The translations under genes and the position numbers were made by a program. This document shows positions 5,107-46,547 of a stretch of 64,000 nucleotides of DNA, piece by piece (the stretch's first letter is position 1; each line of letters begins with the position of its first letter). The stretch is from Nocardioides marinus. Lineage in GTDB: Bacteria > Pseudomonadota > Alphaproteobacteria > Rhodobacterales > Rhodobacteraceae. The stretch lies in contig JAHVJD010000009.1 in NCBI GenBank assembly GCA_019801415.1, positions 1 to 64,000 of the forward strand, given 5' to 3'. Under the pieces are notes generated by a model. The model saw only the letters and a list, made by a program, of their open reading frames with translations, did no database searches and was not told the DNA's origin.

Positions 5107-6006
5107 TTAGGTCGCATCTCCCTCGACAAAGGTCGCAACCACGCTTTTCAGCGCCTGAATGGTGGTCAGCTCCGGGCTGCGGTCCAGCGTCGCCAGGCAA
5201 ATTTGCCGGTTTTGCTCCGGCTCGACCAGGTCCAGCACGCAGGTTCCGCCCAGCCTGCCCAGCGCCTGCGTCAACGCCCGCGGCAGAATCGCCGCCGCCG
5301 ATCCCTCCAGCGCCAGCACCATCGAGGCCATGAACCCGTTGGATTCAGAGACGATCTCCGGCTTGCATCCGAGATCGGCAAAGATGCGATCCAGAATGCG
5401 ACGGTTCTGCATCTGCTGGTTCAGAAGGCTCAGTGGCAGCTCCGCCGCCTCGGCCCAGGTGATCGAGCCGTCCCGCCCGGCCACCATCGCCTCCGGCGCC
5501 AGCAACACGTAGCTTTCATCATAAAGCGGGCGCACCGTCACCAGATCGCGGCCCATGCTGTCGGCATAGGTGATACCGGCGTCTATTGTACCATCATAAA
5601 GCCGCTGCTGGATAGCCAGAGATGTCGTCGCTTCCAGTTGGGTCAGGATCCGCGGATAGCGCTGCCGCACCTGATCCACCAGCTGCGCCGCCCAGGCGGT
5701 GGCGGTCGGGATCACGCCCAGCACCAGCGTGCCGGTCACCTCGCCCCGGCTGGCGGCAATTTCCTGCTCCAGCGCCCGGGCATCATCGAGGATCGACCGC
5801 CCCCGGCGGACGATCATCAACCCCTCCTCGGTCAGCCCCTGAAACCGGTTGGCCCGGCGCACGATGGACAAGCCAAGCCGATCTTCCAGGTTGCGGATCC
5901 GCATGGAAAAGGCCGGTTGCGACATGCCGCATTCGGCCGCCGCCTTGGCAAAATGCTGGTGCCGGGCCAAGGCCGTCAGCAGCTGGAGTTCCTTGAGTTC
6001 AATCAT
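5107..6006 (-). CDS. LysR-family transcriptional regulator (probable fds regulator)
   Basis: The 299-aa protein has a typical LysR winged-helix at residues about 5-60 (LTALARHQHFAKAAAECGMS and following) and a substrate-binding domain after about residue 90. Length is normal for the family. It is transcribed in the same direction as fdsGB-fdsA, 104 bp upstream, and that gap holds a T-N11-A palindrome. By position it is the likely activator of formate dehydrogenase, as LysR-type FdsR proteins are elsewhere. The ligand, perhaps formate, is inferred from context only. Confidence 0.85.
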   Translation of the reverse strand: MIELKELQLLTALARHQHFAKAAAECGMSQPAFSMRIRNLEDRLGLSIVRRANRFQGLTEEGLMIVRRGRSILDDARALEQEIAASRGEVTGTLVLGVIPTATAWAAQLVDQVRQRYPRILTQLEATTSLAIQQRLYDGTIDAGITYADSMGRDLVTVRPLYDESYVLLAPEAMVAGRDGSITWAEAAELPLSLLNQQMQNRRILDRIFADLGCKPEIVSESNGFMASMVLALEGSAAAILPRALTQALGRLGGTCVLDLVEPEQNRQICLATLDRSPELTTIQALKSVVATFVEGDAT

Positions 6007-6144: not shown

Positions 6145-6696
6145 TCAGGCGCCCACCGGCTCCAGCGTGTCATGCAGGGCATCACCATAGGCTTTGCTCA
6201 GGCTGTCCAGCGCGTTGCGCGTCGCACGCAGCTGCTGGGCCAGATCGCCATGCGACACCTGCACCCGGCGGGCCAGCGCCGCGCGCTGCCGCAGCAGCCC
6301 GTCCAGCACCTCTGCCCCCCGTTCGGTCAGCCGATAACTCACCCCGGACCGCCCGGCCCCCTGCTTGCAGGTCAGGCCGGCCGCGCCCAGTTTGCGCAGC
6401 GAGTATTGGATATTTGGAATGTCGACACGGTTGGTTGCGGCGGCCAGCTCCTTGATCGCCTTGGGCTTGCCCTCGTCGCCGATCAGCTGCAACAGGGTGA
6501 CCTCCGCACCGGTCAGCGACACGTCGCTGATCTGTTCAAAGCCATGCACCTGCCAACGCGCCAGCCCTTCGGCGGCCCGTTGCACGGCCAACGCCAGCGC
6601 CTGGATGTCCTGCGCGACAGACTGTTGCTGGTCCAAGCCAGAGGTCTGCGCCTCTGCAGATGGGGAAAATGGAATGGGGGCGGTATTTATCTCCAA
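6145..6696 (-). CDS. MarR-like winged-helix transcriptional regulator
   Basis: I chose a TTG start at 6696 because GGAG lies 8 nt upstream and the protein family-like sequence begins there, giving 183 aa. Upstream in-frame codons give an unlikely Trp/Arg-rich extension. A central winged helix (SDVSLTGAEVTLLQLIG through IQYSLRKLGAAGLT) and a long C-terminal helix fit the small MarR-like regulators annotated as winged-helix DNA-binding proteins in Rhodobacteraceae. The target is unknown. It lies convergent to nothing and divergent from the epimerase gene. Confidence 0.75.
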   Translation of the reverse strand: MEINTAPIPFSPSAEAQTSGLDQQQSVAQDIQALALAVQRAAEGLARWQVHGFEQISDVSLTGAEVTLLQLIGDEGKPKAIKELAAATNRVDIPNIQYSLRKLGAAGLTCKQGAGRSGVSYRLTERGAEVLDGLLRQRAALARRVQVSHGDLAQQLRATRNALDSLSKAYGDALHDTLEPVGA

Positions 6697-44386: not shown

Positions 44387-44857
44387 TTACTCGGTGGCGG
44401 TTGCGTTTGCCGCGGTGAGGGTGCCGCCCGCCTTGGCCACGGCCTCAACGGCGGCCTTGGAGGCGCCGGTGACCGCGATGGTTGCCTTGGCAGTGATTTC
44501 ACCCTTGGCCAGCACGCGGATGCCGTCCAGCTTGCGACGCACCAGGCCGGATGCAACCAGCGAATCCTCGGTGATCGAGCCGGCGTCCAGCTTGCCTGCG
44601 TCGATGAACTTCTGGATCAGGCCCAGGTTGACGACAGCGTATTCCTTGCGGTTCGGCTTGTTGAAGCCGCGCTTGGGCAGACGCTGGTAGAGGGGCATCT
44701 GGCCGCCTTCGTAGCCGTTGATCGAAACGCCCGAACGGGATTTCTGACCTTTGATACCACGGCCACCCATTTTACCCTTGCCGGAGCCGGGGCCACGGCC
44801 AACGCGGGTGCGTTTCTTGGATGCGCCGGGATTGTCGCGCAGTTCGTGCAGTTTCAT
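44387..44857 (-). CDS. rplO: 50S ribosomal protein L15
   Basis: The 156-aa L15 starts [20 protein letters not shown] and has [19 protein letters not shown] placed the start at 44857; the frame runs further upstream but is not L15. The gene begins a new transcription unit separated from rpmD by the DUF1127 cassette and three terminators. Confidence 0.97.
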
Positions 44858-44953
44858 GTCGCTTCTCCTTGCCGGATGTGACCCCCGAAGCGTGATGGGC
44901 CAAACACGGCGTTTCTTGATTGGTGATTCCGTGGCGCATGACGCCACCGGGGG

Positions 44954-44982
44954 CGTATAGACCTGTTGCGCCACGGGATCAA
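44954..44982 (-). promoter_or_regulatory. Promoter candidate for rplO-secY-adk
   Basis: On the minus strand TTGATC, 17-bp spacer, TATACG, about 95 nt upstream of the rplO start. It restarts transcription after the DUF1127 terminators. Confidence 0.6.
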
Positions 44983-45310
44983 GCCCCGCGGCCGCCAGCT
45001 GATGCGCCCGTGCTGCGCCAAAGCGCCCTGCGCTGGCGATAGCTCCCTTTTTGCTGTGCTTCCGCCTTGGTGTCTCTGCTTGTCGACCATTAAAGGGTGG
45101 CGGCGCCGCCGGGTGGAGATGGGATGGGGCGTAACCCCCATGCGAATAACGCGTCAGCCGCGCTCCGGGTGCCATGCCGAAGCCCAATTCCAGGTGCCGG
45201 GTGTGTCAGGCCCGGCGGTTGACCATGATCGGGTTTGAGACTGCCAGACCTGGGTTAACACCGCGTGGGAGCGGCGTACGCGACCCACGCAACGGCCCCG
45301 GGACGGGCAC
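44983..45310. other. Unassigned GC-rich stretch between DUF1127 gene and rplO promoter
   Basis: No open frame here resembles a protein and no known RNA was recognised. It holds a perfect 7-bp stem GCGTGGG (45263-45269) with CCCACGC (45284-45290) whose loop itself folds (GCG TA CGC). It may be a degraded gene or an uncharacterised RNA. Confidence 0.4.
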
Positions 45311-45319
45311 TGCAGAAAA

Positions 45320-45401
45320 CAAAAACGCCCCTGCCGATTGGCAGGGGCGCTTTTGCGCCGGTTCCCGGAGAGGGAGGAGGATCCGGGGGCGGCGAAAGGG
45401 A
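45320..45401 (-). ncRNA. CcsR-like anti-Shine-Dalgarno RNA, 3'UTR of DUF1127 gene 1
   Basis: On the minus strand, 14 nt past the stop codon, CCCGGA and TCCGGG (45364-45369, 45382-45387) form a 6-bp stem whose 12-nt loop exposes CCTCCTCCC (45372-45380). An intrinsic terminator follows 14 nt later. CCUCCUCCC loops downstream of DUF1127 genes define the CcsR RNAs of Rhodobacter sphaeroides and the wider cuckoo family. The paralogue at 45798-45882 has the same layout. The ends are estimates. Confidence 0.7.
45326..45349 (-). terminator. Intrinsic terminator of DUF1127 gene 1
   Basis: CGCCCCTGCC and GGCAGGGGCG form a perfect 10-bp stem with loop GATT, followed on the minus strand by TTTTTGTTTTC. 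Confidence 0.92.
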
Positions 45402-45617
45402 TTACTTGCCGTAGACATGTTCTCGCGCAGCGCCCGGAATGGCACAGCGGGTCAGACCGATGTCATCCAGCTCACGGTCCGACATGGACCGCAGCGCGTC
45501 GACGGTGAGGCGGTATTCGCGGCGCAGTTTCCATGCGCGCAGGGCGGCAGCGGCAAAACCGCCCACACGAGCCAGAATGCCCGAGGAAGCAGGTGCCGAA
45601 ACAGTTGAATAAGCCAT
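45402..45617 (-). CDS. DUF1127 small protein 1
   Basis: The 71-aa protein has the arginine-rich C-terminal DUF1127 motif RSMSDRELDDIGLTRCAI and a YRLTVDAL helix. DUF1127 proteins in alphaproteobacteria bind RNA-related or kinase partners; in R. sphaeroides CcaF1 is coupled to maturation of the CcsR RNAs that follow it. Here a CcsR-like hairpin and a terminator follow directly. The start ATG is preceded by AAGGAAAC. Its length equals the paralogue's. Confidence 0.88.
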   Translation of the reverse strand: MAYSTVSAPASSGILARVGGFAAAALRAWKLRREYRLTVDALRSMSDRELDDIGLTRCAIPGAAREHVYGK

Positions 45618-45695
45618 TGTTCTTGTTTCCTTTGCATCGGAGCCGGAAACGGTTTCCGGTCGCAGCTGATGATCTGTTCGCTTGTCGTGCAGCGG

Positions 45696-45723
45696 AAATA
45701 GGGACGCGACCGGCTGCCTTCAA
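45696..45723 (-). promoter_or_regulatory. RpoH-like promoter of DUF1127 gene 1
   Basis: On the minus strand TTGAAG (TTG at plus 45721-45723) and CTATTT (plus 45696-45701) are separated so that TTG is 22 nt from CTATTT. The identical TTG-N19-CTATTT spacing recurs upstream of DUF1127 gene 2. CTATnT -10 elements are typical of RpoH-type promoters in Rhodobacter. Confidence 0.55.
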
Positions 45724-45797
45724 CCGCCGCTTTGGTCTGGCCGCCATGCCCGGAATGCATGGCTAGGGCCATTGAAATCCGGGCGCTGTCACCAGCC

Positions 45798-45882
45798 AAA
45801 AGAAAACGCCCCTGCCCGGCGTCGGGCAGAGGCGTTTTGGTCCGGACCTGAGGGAGGAGGAGAAAGGTCCGGGAAGGGGAAT
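45798..45882 (-). ncRNA. CcsR-like anti-Shine-Dalgarno RNA, 3'UTR of DUF1127 gene 2
   Basis: On the minus strand, 10 nt past the stop codon, CCGGACCT and AGGTCCGG (45842-45849, 45865-45872) form an 8-bp stem whose 15-nt loop exposes CTCCTCCTCCC. The intrinsic terminator follows after 3 nt. Same design as the copy downstream of DUF1127 gene 1, with different stem sequence but conserved loop, which argues for a conserved RNA and not chance. Confidence 0.75.
45803..45838 (-). terminator. Intrinsic terminator of DUF1127 gene 2
   Basis: A 15-pair stem (one C-A mismatch) between 45803-45817 and 45824-45838, loop of 6 nt, and CTTTT on the minus strand after the stem's own T-run. Confidence 0.9.
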
Positions 45883-46098
45883 TCAGTGGCCGTAGACGTG
45901 CTGGCGGGCGATGTCTGCGATGTCGCCACGGCGGACGCCGATGTCGGACAGTTCGCGGTCGCTCAGGCCGTCCAGCTCGTTGTAGGTGCGCTGGTACTCG
46001 CGCGCCTTTTCCCAGCCGGTCTTCACGGCCTCAAAGGCGTGACGAATACGGGCGGTCAGGGACAGGGCGGGGGTGGAAGAAAGAACATGTGCCATCAT
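45883..46098 (-). CDS. DUF1127 small protein 2
   Basis: The 71-aa protein shares the C-terminal LSDRELSDIGVRRGDI and ARQHVYGH with DUF1127 gene 1, which ends AREHVYGK. The ATG at 46098 has AGGA 5 nt upstream and gives the same length as the paralogue; 46095 is possible. The pair probably arose by duplication. A CcsR-like hairpin and terminator follow. Confidence 0.88.
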   Translation of the reverse strand: MMAHVLSSTPALSLTARIRHAFEAVKTGWEKAREYQRTYNELDGLSDRELSDIGVRRGDIADIARQHVYGH

Positions 46099-46166
46099 TA
46101 AGATCCTTGTGTCTGAGCCGGGCCTATTCCCGGCGGTGCTTGTGTTGGTCTTTTCTTGTGACACCG

Positions 46167-46194
46167 AAATAGGAAATACCGTTGGCGATAACAA
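46167..46194 (-). promoter_or_regulatory. RpoH-like promoter of DUF1127 gene 2
   Basis: TTG (plus 46192-46194) and CTATTT (plus 46167-46172) on the minus strand with the same 22-nt TTG-to-CTATTT distance as the paralogue's promoter. The flanks otherwise differ, which supports functional constraint. Confidence 0.55.
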
Positions 46195-46300
46195 TTGCCG
46201 GTTCGGTCTGTCCGCTATGCGGCGGATGCAAGGGCCCTTGCCAGGCAGTTAAGCCTCCGCTTCCCCTGCCCTCGCCCGCCGCTCAGGGCGGCGCAACGAA

Positions 46301-46329
46301 AAACGCCCCCGGCAGAACCGGGGGCGTTT
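46301..46329 (-). terminator. Intrinsic terminator closing the spc block after rpmD
   Basis: A perfect 12-bp stem (46301-46312 with 46318-46329), 5-nt loop, T-tract TTTTTCGTTG on the minus strand, 30 nt past the rpmD stop. Confidence 0.92.
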
Positions 46330-46358
46330 TCCTAGATCAGTCGCGAAAGAGGGGCGTC

Positions 46359-46547
46359 TTAGCCGCGCTCTTCGATGATCTGAACCAGATGCGGGATCGA
46401 GTTGACCATACCGCGCACGGAGGGGGTATCCTCCAGCTCGCGGGTCTTGTGCATCTTGTTCAGGCCCAGGCCAACCAGGGTTGCGCGCTGTTTGGCGGGG
46501 CGGCGGATCGGCGAGCCGATCTGCTTGACGACGATGGTTTTTGCCAT
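46359..46547 (-). CDS. rpmD: 50S ribosomal protein L30
   Basis: The 62-aa L30 has [20 protein letters not shown] and ends with the conserved PHLVQIIEE. It starts 12 bp after rpsE and is the last gene before the DUF1127 cassette. Confidence 0.96.

Follow-up and report, generated by a model that had tools for sequence, protein, structure and literature searches.

Paired DUF1127 genes in the rpmD-rplO gap of the Leisingera group carry conserved 3' hairpins with an anti-Shine-Dalgarno loop

Two short DUF1127 genes, each followed by a hairpin that exposes the anti-Shine-Dalgarno (anti-SD) motif CTCCTCC in its loop and then by its own terminator, were found in tandem between the ribosomal protein genes rpmD and rplO. 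The feature is real and under selection, and the pair probably gives rise to 3'UTR-derived anti-SD RNAs that act in trans, being single-hairpin relatives of the CIN1/CcsR kind. The window, that is, the whole stretch of 64,000 nucleotides that was analysed, corresponds to bases 1-64000 of contig C9, in a genome of 3.89 Mb assembled in 20 contigs.

The gene order on the minus strand, where all the features of the locus lie, is rpmD (L30; 46359..46547; NCBIfam TIGR01308), DUF1127 gene B (45883..46098), DUF1127 gene A (45402..45617) and rplO (L15; 44387..44857; NCBIfam TIGR01071), followed by secY and adk, the last two called by eye from their open reading frames. Genes B and A encode 71 amino acids each and match Pfam PF06568 with 48.9 and 46.5 bits, respectively (cut-off 23.3); the genome contains seven DUF1127 genes in total. 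A terminator-like inverted repeat is also present 3' of rpmD, indicating that genes A and B are separate units within the gap of the ribosomal cluster. No promoter was found by a sigma-70 scan of positions 44700-46300.

Both genes follow the plan of stop codon, spacer, stem, loop and terminator that a sequence-only reading of this DNA had described, each with a single hairpin and both lying within a cluster of ribosomal genes; sequence, folding, Pfam matches and gene order bear it out on the minus strand. For gene B, 10 nt separate the stop codon from the stem of the hairpin (45842..45872), which folds into an 8-bp stem and a 15-nt loop with the motif CTCCTCCTCCC at 45852-45862. The intrinsic terminator of gene B (45803..45838) was found by a terminator scan, with 16 pairs, 10 of them GC, and a U-rich tail. 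For gene A, 14 nt lead from the stop codon to the 6-bp inner stem of the hairpin (45357..45393), which also has a 4-bp outer stem and a 12-nt loop, with the motif CCTCCTCCC at 45372-45380. The terminator of gene A (45319..45356), a hairpin of 17 pairs whose 3' arm and tail are U-rich, is known from the 3'UTR fold and was not listed by the simple terminator scan. In the folds of both hairpins CCUCCUCCC lies in the unpaired loop. The segment 5' of the gene A stem is not AU-rich, which makes the release of this RNA by RNase E doubtful.

Compared with shuffled sequences, the whole 3'UTRs gave fold z-scores of -6.8 and -5.0, with 0/200 shuffles as stable in each case, a stability owed mostly to the terminators; taken alone, the anti-SD hairpins have more modest z-scores, from -1.9 to -3.0. 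When only the flanks were shuffled and the motif was held unpaired, the gene B hairpin was equalled in 0/200 shuffles and the gene A hairpin in 1/200. CTCCTCCC showed no general enrichment in the genome (92 sites in 3.89 Mb, against 113 for the backwards control), and 35 of the 92 sites fit a loose Shine-Dalgarno-plus-start pattern on the opposite strand. An initial energy filter on these sites was too lax (44 passed), and a contiguous-stem test with shuffled flanks was used instead. By this test, 17 of the 92 sites are located in the loop of a stem with 6 or more pairs (shuffled flanks: mean 5.2, maximum 13 in 500 rounds), and six of these 17 sites are part of DUF1127 loci. Three of the seven DUF1127 genes of the genome have CTCCTCCC within 60 nt of the stop codon, with a binomial P of ~1e-8 in which two of the three genes are the finding itself and only the third, a ccaF1-like gene, is independent; the motif is absent from the other four.

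The tandem of genes B and A was present in 20 of 21 genomes of the genus (Leisingera group), the window's own among the 21, and the exception was a 410-contig assembly (G076). CTCCTCC was found in both loops at all 20 loci. The gene A loop contains CCTCCTCCC at 19/20 loci and CTCCTCCC at 20/20, while full CCTCCTCCC and CTCCTCCC were found in the gene B loop at 1/20 only. Across the genus, the motif common to the two loops is CTCCTCC and seldom the full CCTCCTCCC. Against shuffled flanks, the gene B hairpin ranked at most 3/200 in 20/20 loci, and the gene A hairpin at most 11/200 in 18/20, being unremarkable in L068 (29/200) and L069 (59/200).

Pairs changed on both sides are few in the genus alignments (2 for B and 5 for A; within the anti-SD hairpin, 1 and 3), so arm pairing was tested across loci. 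The sample, chosen by us, comprised 21 hairpins: 3 of the 20 B, 4 of the 20 A, 10 of the 13 from other genera (see below) and 4 of an array that follows the ccaF1-like gene. None of 300 random re-pairings of the arms reached the true mean energy; considered singly, only 6 of the 21 hairpins outdid every foreign arm pairing. These results uphold the suggestion that an exposed anti-SD loop is kept while the stems differ.

A profile of gene B searched against species genomes returned 64 loci, from which 12 two-gene Leisingera-group loci and 6 distant loci without rpmD or rplO were removed. The remaining 46 loci, belonging to Ruegeria, Phaeobacter, Pseudophaeobacter, Tritonibacter, Zongyanglinia, Parasedimentitalea and further relatives, all have a DUF1127 gene near rpmD or rplO (the seam), with both ribosomal genes present in the stretch in 39. 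The comparison of 3'UTRs in relatives, proposed together with the original observation, gave a divided outcome: outside the 20 genus loci, where the loop is always kept, CTCCTCC was found 3' of the seam gene at 13/46 loci and was missing at 33/46, mostly Ruegeria, which retain the gene. The 13 motif-bearing loci have stems unlike those of the Leisingera group and retain the loop; only 8 of the 13 hairpins ranked at most 10/200 against shuffled flanks.

At two loci (L112 and L113), the stop codon of the seam DUF1127 gene is separated from the anti-SD hairpin by ~95 nt that have terminal inverted repeats (GCGTTTCCAG ... CTGGWAAACGC) and resemble a small mobile element. In a family sample of 32 DUF1127 genes chosen by similarity to gene B, CTCCTCC was found at most 90 nt from the stop codon in 20; the 32 include three seam genes, of which a single one has the motif. 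Ten to 14 tandem CTCCTCC copies adjoin a DUF1127 gene in L041, L055, L057 and L058 of the family.

The hairpin could merely stabilise the 3' end or help termination, with a C-rich loop that has no partner. The strong terminator directly 3' of the hairpin would suit such a role, as would the Ruegeria seam loci, where the gene and a terminator-like hairpin are kept without the motif. A plain stabiliser, however, needs no such loop, and the loop heptamer is kept in 20/20 A and 20/20 B despite stem changes, and again over different stems in the 13 loci of other genera, which makes this explanation unlikely.

The seam itself was surveyed in an even sample of the family, in which rplO was obtained from 59/61 genomes. 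The survey comprised 56 stretches, some shortened by contig ends (the own genome and the contig-edge cases G017 and G033 were left out). A DUF1127 gene was found at most 4 kb upstream of rplO in four of the 56 (G006, G031, G038 and G039), and the motif was seen in G039 alone among these, where one of two copies lies in a clear hairpin loop. In the 41 stretches with rpmD visible, the rpmD-rplO gap ranges from 45 bp to >3.6 kb and contains different cargo genes, indicating that it is an insertion place with DUF1127 genes as one resident among others. In the window, the parts of the gap on either side of the pair are 46098-46359 and 44857-45319.

Genes A and B are ~44-45% identical. In a tree of 71 proteins, the A genes group together (98/80), without a firm placement for the group, and the free tree does not join A with B. 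A joint A+B clade is compatible with the data (AU p 0.455), and so is a grouping of B and the remaining seam genes in one clade (p 0.39), in a test that rests on only 71 columns and with a bootstrap that had not settled. The proposed duplication of the module is thus unproven.

The association of DUF1127 genes with CcsR-like RNAs has already been published under the name CIN1, which in Rhodobacter sphaeroides comprises, in the available passages, a 71-aa DUF1127 gene, CcsR-like RNAs and a Rho-independent terminator (PMC10253847). Like CIN1 (ccaF1-CcsR1-4), as defined in the same excerpts, each unit of the window has a short DUF1127 gene directly 5' of a CcsR-like hairpin. The unpaired loops in the folds and this linkage agree with the view of the sequence-only reading that the hairpins are CcsR- or cuckoo-like. 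Unlike the CIN1 array, the window has one anti-SD hairpin and one terminator per gene, between rpmD and rplO.

At the gathering threshold, no Rfam family matched the site. The covariance search that had been suggested as a check gave scores under the cut-off: CcsR1 (RF02791) matched gene A over the full model length with 24.7 bits (cut-off 65.3), and ar14/NfeR1 (RF02344) matched gene B with 29.2 bits (cut-off 58.8). The same search gave 90.1 bits for L041, indicating that it works. The ccaF1-like gene of the own genome (C7:161444), which is the third DUF1127 gene with the motif and is followed by four anti-SD hairpins in a row, gave two CcsR1 matches, of 35.2 and 32.9 bits, which are also below 65.3.

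Several anti-SD RNAs of other Alphaproteobacteria are comparable. The window hairpins have in common with alpha-r14/NfeR1 and the cuckoo RNAs of Rhizobiales an anti-SD motif in the loop and variable stems, and with NfeR1 also a TGCA-N6-GCAT box upstream and predicted uptake targets, as far as the accessible text of the sources goes (PMC10746234, PMC7143759). Retention of the loop motif over diverging stems is attributed to cuckoo RNAs, and loop-kept, stem-variable anti-SD hairpins have been published for SmelA075/099 (excerpts of PMC3927594) and ar14. NfeR1 is described as a standalone 123-nt RNA with three hairpins, in contrast to the single hairpin per gene in the 3'UTR of a coding gene in the window. 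Excerpts on AbcR1 and AbcR2 report C/U-rich anti-SD seeds, uptake targets and LysR-type activation (PMC7143759, PMC7486931), features common to the proposal made here; unlike the window hairpins in 3'UTRs, they are separate RNA genes with a three-stem fold (PMC7143759). Among the literature matches listed, no title or abstract dealt with DUF1127 genes at the rpmD-rplO position, or with a TGCA-N6-GCAT box before DUF1127 genes of Rhodobacterales. The association of DUF1127 genes with CcsR-like hairpins is thus not new in kind, while the single-hairpin units in a ribosomal gap, their shared box and the phasin-like carrier described next may be.

One CTCCTCCC site (L027 ~1501, equal to C2:275347, minus strand) lies 3' of a gene for 149 aa that immediately follows a phaC-like gene (PHA synthase by its match to PDB 5xav, E 6e-65). 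The 149-aa gene looks like a phasin gene by its sequence and position; NCBIfam gave no match for it, and PDB none of note. In the 20 genus loci where its start was found (L358-L377; L378 is a fragment), the 3'UTR always contains a terminator-like hairpin, and its CTCCTCC lies within a hairpin loop or close to one in all 20, indicating that the anti-SD plan is not confined to DUF1127 genes. An upstream box of the kind described below was considered for this gene and judged weak: its TGCR form was found at 15/20 loci, all at -51 in minus orientation, and its strict form at 0/20.

Another explanation is that only the DUF1127 proteins matter, as regulators that bind proteins, and that the hairpins are left over from a larger CcsR array. 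Small DUF1127 proteins of Agrobacterium act on PhoR, and CcaF1 complements there, according to the passages available (PMC12501420); remnants, for their part, would not be expected to retain both the loop and compensating stems, and this explanation is improbable.

The alignment of the 20 genus loci showed a conserved block 5' of each gene. It contains an LTTR-type box, TGCA-N6-GCATAGC for gene B (46214..46230, -132 from the ATG) and TGCA-N6-GCATGGC for gene A (45743..45759, -142 from the ATG). The form TGCR-N6-GCAT, which was picked after the genus alignment had been seen, is present at -132 to -142 in 20/20 B and 20/20 A loci (shuffled expectation 0.35 and 0.26), and the strict TGCA form in 18/20 B and 14/20 A. 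The box was found in 10/13 motif-bearing seam genes from other genera, compared with 8/35 seam DUF1127 genes that have no motif; these counts include related species, which are not independent of one another. In the ccaF1-like gene, TGCR-N6-GCAT stands at -133. In the genome, TGCA-N6-GCATRGC has 24 sites (backwards control, 0), of which four stand upstream of DUF1127 genes at a distance of at most 300 bp; the P of 4e-10 for 4/7 DUF1127 genes is not an independent value, as three of the genes supplied the pattern and only L002 is independent. This pattern was derived from the window pair and the ccaF1-like gene before the published LsrB box was known to us.

A LysR-type regulator probably reads the TGCR-N6-GCAT box. 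In Sinorhizobium meliloti, LsrB activates the anti-SD RNA NfeR1 by binding TGCA-N6-GCAT in its promoter (available part of PMC10746234). The regulator VtlR is reported to activate AbcR2 as well as three DUF1127 genes in Brucella and, in Agrobacterium, abcR1 along with one gene for a small protein, and the VtlR boxes given in the same excerpts, CAATGCAGCCATGCA and GCAT-N3-TG-N3-T, are spaced otherwise (PMC12595884, PMC7486931). LsrB is described as confined to Rhizobiales in the accessible passages of PMC11975290, and this, together with the different spacing of the VtlR boxes, counts against the proposed model. In R. sphaeroides, ccaF1 is reported to be under RpoHI/RpoHII (excerpts of PMC10253847), which differs from the LTTR-type box of the window genes.

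A LysR-type gene of the window (5107-6006, minus strand) was considered as a possible regulator and set aside: it matches many LysR models, with all 25 listed under their cut-offs, and has no LsrB assignment. This gene has a TGCA-N6-GCATGGC box ~240 nt upstream (6247-6263) and adjoins an apparent formate dehydrogenase subunit gene, called by eye. At C7:41556-41572 and C7:41468-41484 (L292 and L416), the same box stands ~85 nt before an ABC solute-receptor gene with a GGGAGGAG Shine-Dalgarno sequence.

Each gene also has a hairpin in its 5'UTR, located 5' of the Shine-Dalgarno sequence. That of gene B (46117..46134; GCCGGG-AATAGG-CCCGGC) is present in 20/20 genus loci, with a stem of 5-6 pairs and the loop AATAGG or AATATG. 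That of gene A (45643..45659), whose stem covaries among relatives, is present in 19/20, with none of note in L081. For a DUF1127 gene of S. meliloti, transcription attenuation by a 5'UTR hairpin is reported in the available text of PMC12218461, and was considered as a candidate role for these hairpins too.

Partners for the loop were sought in the transcripts of the pair. A role in cis, in which the loop would pair with the Shine-Dalgarno sequence or coding part of its own mRNA or with the rplO leader, tuning DUF1127 or ribosomal protein synthesis, would suit the position in a ribosomal cluster and the AAGGAG Shine-Dalgarno sequence of rplO, but is improbable given that GGAGG or GAGGAG partners number 0 in B transcripts (8.3 expected) and 5 in A transcripts (7.2 expected) over 20 loci, that the own Shine-Dalgarno sequences are short AAGGA types, and that a terminator stands between each unit and rplO. 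The lack of a GGAGG or GAGGAG partner in the B transcripts favours action in trans over action in cis.

Candidate trans targets were found among genes whose Shine-Dalgarno sequence matches the loop. Sixteen ORFs have an ATG 2-9 nt after GGGAGGAG, this requirement having reduced the set from 22; the six dropped ORFs include L259, a TRAP receptor by eye. Eight of the 16 encode uptake parts: three DctP, a DctM, a DctQ, two ABC receptors and a sodium:alanine symporter. The other eight encode enzymes, mostly of catabolic type, namely two acyl-CoA dehydrogenases, an AMP-binding enzyme, a CoA transferase, a short-chain dehydrogenase, enzymes of the aldehyde/xanthine-dehydrogenase and mandelate-racemase types, and a weak TPP-enzyme match. 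Both target classes were named after this first set was seen, and before a replicate and a second control were scanned.

The replicate set (GGGAGGA followed by A, C or T; 19 ORFs) contains 6 uptake genes, 4 CoA-linked genes and one PHB-regulator (PhaR-type) gene. The controls AAGGAGG (19 ORFs) and AAGGAGA (17 ORFs) contain 4 and 1 uptake genes, respectively, and none of the CoA-linked families. The replicate and the controls were taken from the first 30 loci per pattern, of 85, 75 and 113 sites; two ORFs of <60 aa were removed from the first control, and 100 aa were required in the replicate and the second control. Six of the 16 GGGAGGAG ORFs and nine of the 19 AAGGAGG ORFs were scanned over 78 residues only.

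In the pooled sets, uptake genes account for 14/35 loop-matching Shine-Dalgarno sequences against 5/36 controls (one-sided p 0.013; 0.027 if L389, a DUF4212 gene left out of the uptake class, is counted in), and acyl-CoA, AMP-binding or CoA-transferase families for 8/35 against 0/36 (one-sided p 0.002). In the replicate alone, the two classes together reach 10/19 against 5/36 (p 0.003), and the uptake class by itself is not significant (6/19, p 0.12). Loop-matching Shine-Dalgarno sequences thus appear moderately enriched for uptake and CoA-linked catabolism, and Shine-Dalgarno composition may vary by gene class for other reasons. The uptake enrichment agrees with the case of NfeR1, for which the passages available give mostly ABC uptake systems as predicted targets (PMC10746234).

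The mechanism proposed for the trans-acting anti-SD RNAs is as follows. Each DUF1127 gene would have a separate promoter region, with a LysR-type regulator probably acting on both genes through the TGCR-N6-GCAT box, and each transcript would end at its own terminator. The 3'UTR, set free or still attached, would act as a short RNA whose loop CUCCUCC would pair in trans with purine-rich Shine-Dalgarno sequences and lower translation, with genes of solute uptake and CoA-linked catabolism as the main targets. The DUF1127 protein, in analogy to CcaF1 in Rhodobacter sphaeroides, could bind RNA and aid maturation. Besides the regulator boxes discussed above, several points count against the anti-SD RNA reading: the Rfam scores below cut-off, the missing CCTCCTCCC in 19/20 B loops, the 33/46 loci without the motif, the hairpins that do not stand out in the flank and arm tests (gene A in L068 and L069, 5 of the 13 from other genera, 15 of the 21 re-paired), the non-significant uptake class in the replicate, the doubtful RNase E release of A and the possibility that DUF1127 proteins act by binding proteins.

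A wider scheme is put forward tentatively, and could well be wrong. The anti-SD hairpins would be a 3'UTR cassette acquired by unrelated roseobacter mRNAs (several DUF1127 genes, and the phasin-like gene next to phaC), which would form one regulon: a LysR-type regulator would switch on the DUF1127-linked members through TGCR-N6-GCAT, and the common loop would lower acyl-CoA catabolism and the uptake of nutrients. On this view, rhizobial NfeR1 and the DUF1127 hairpins of Rhodobacterales might represent two versions of a single ancient circuit.

DUF1127 proteins and CCUCCUCCC RNAs co-occur in Alphaproteobacteria, and the rpmD-rplO pair, with one hairpin per gene, offers a compact and conserved test case for this association. 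Distant relatives are known to have a comparable RNA plan, with a similar switch site and similar likely targets. The box, the enrichment of target classes and the phasin-like hairpin suggest common control and common targets for the anti-SD RNAs of rhizobia and those linked to DUF1127 genes.
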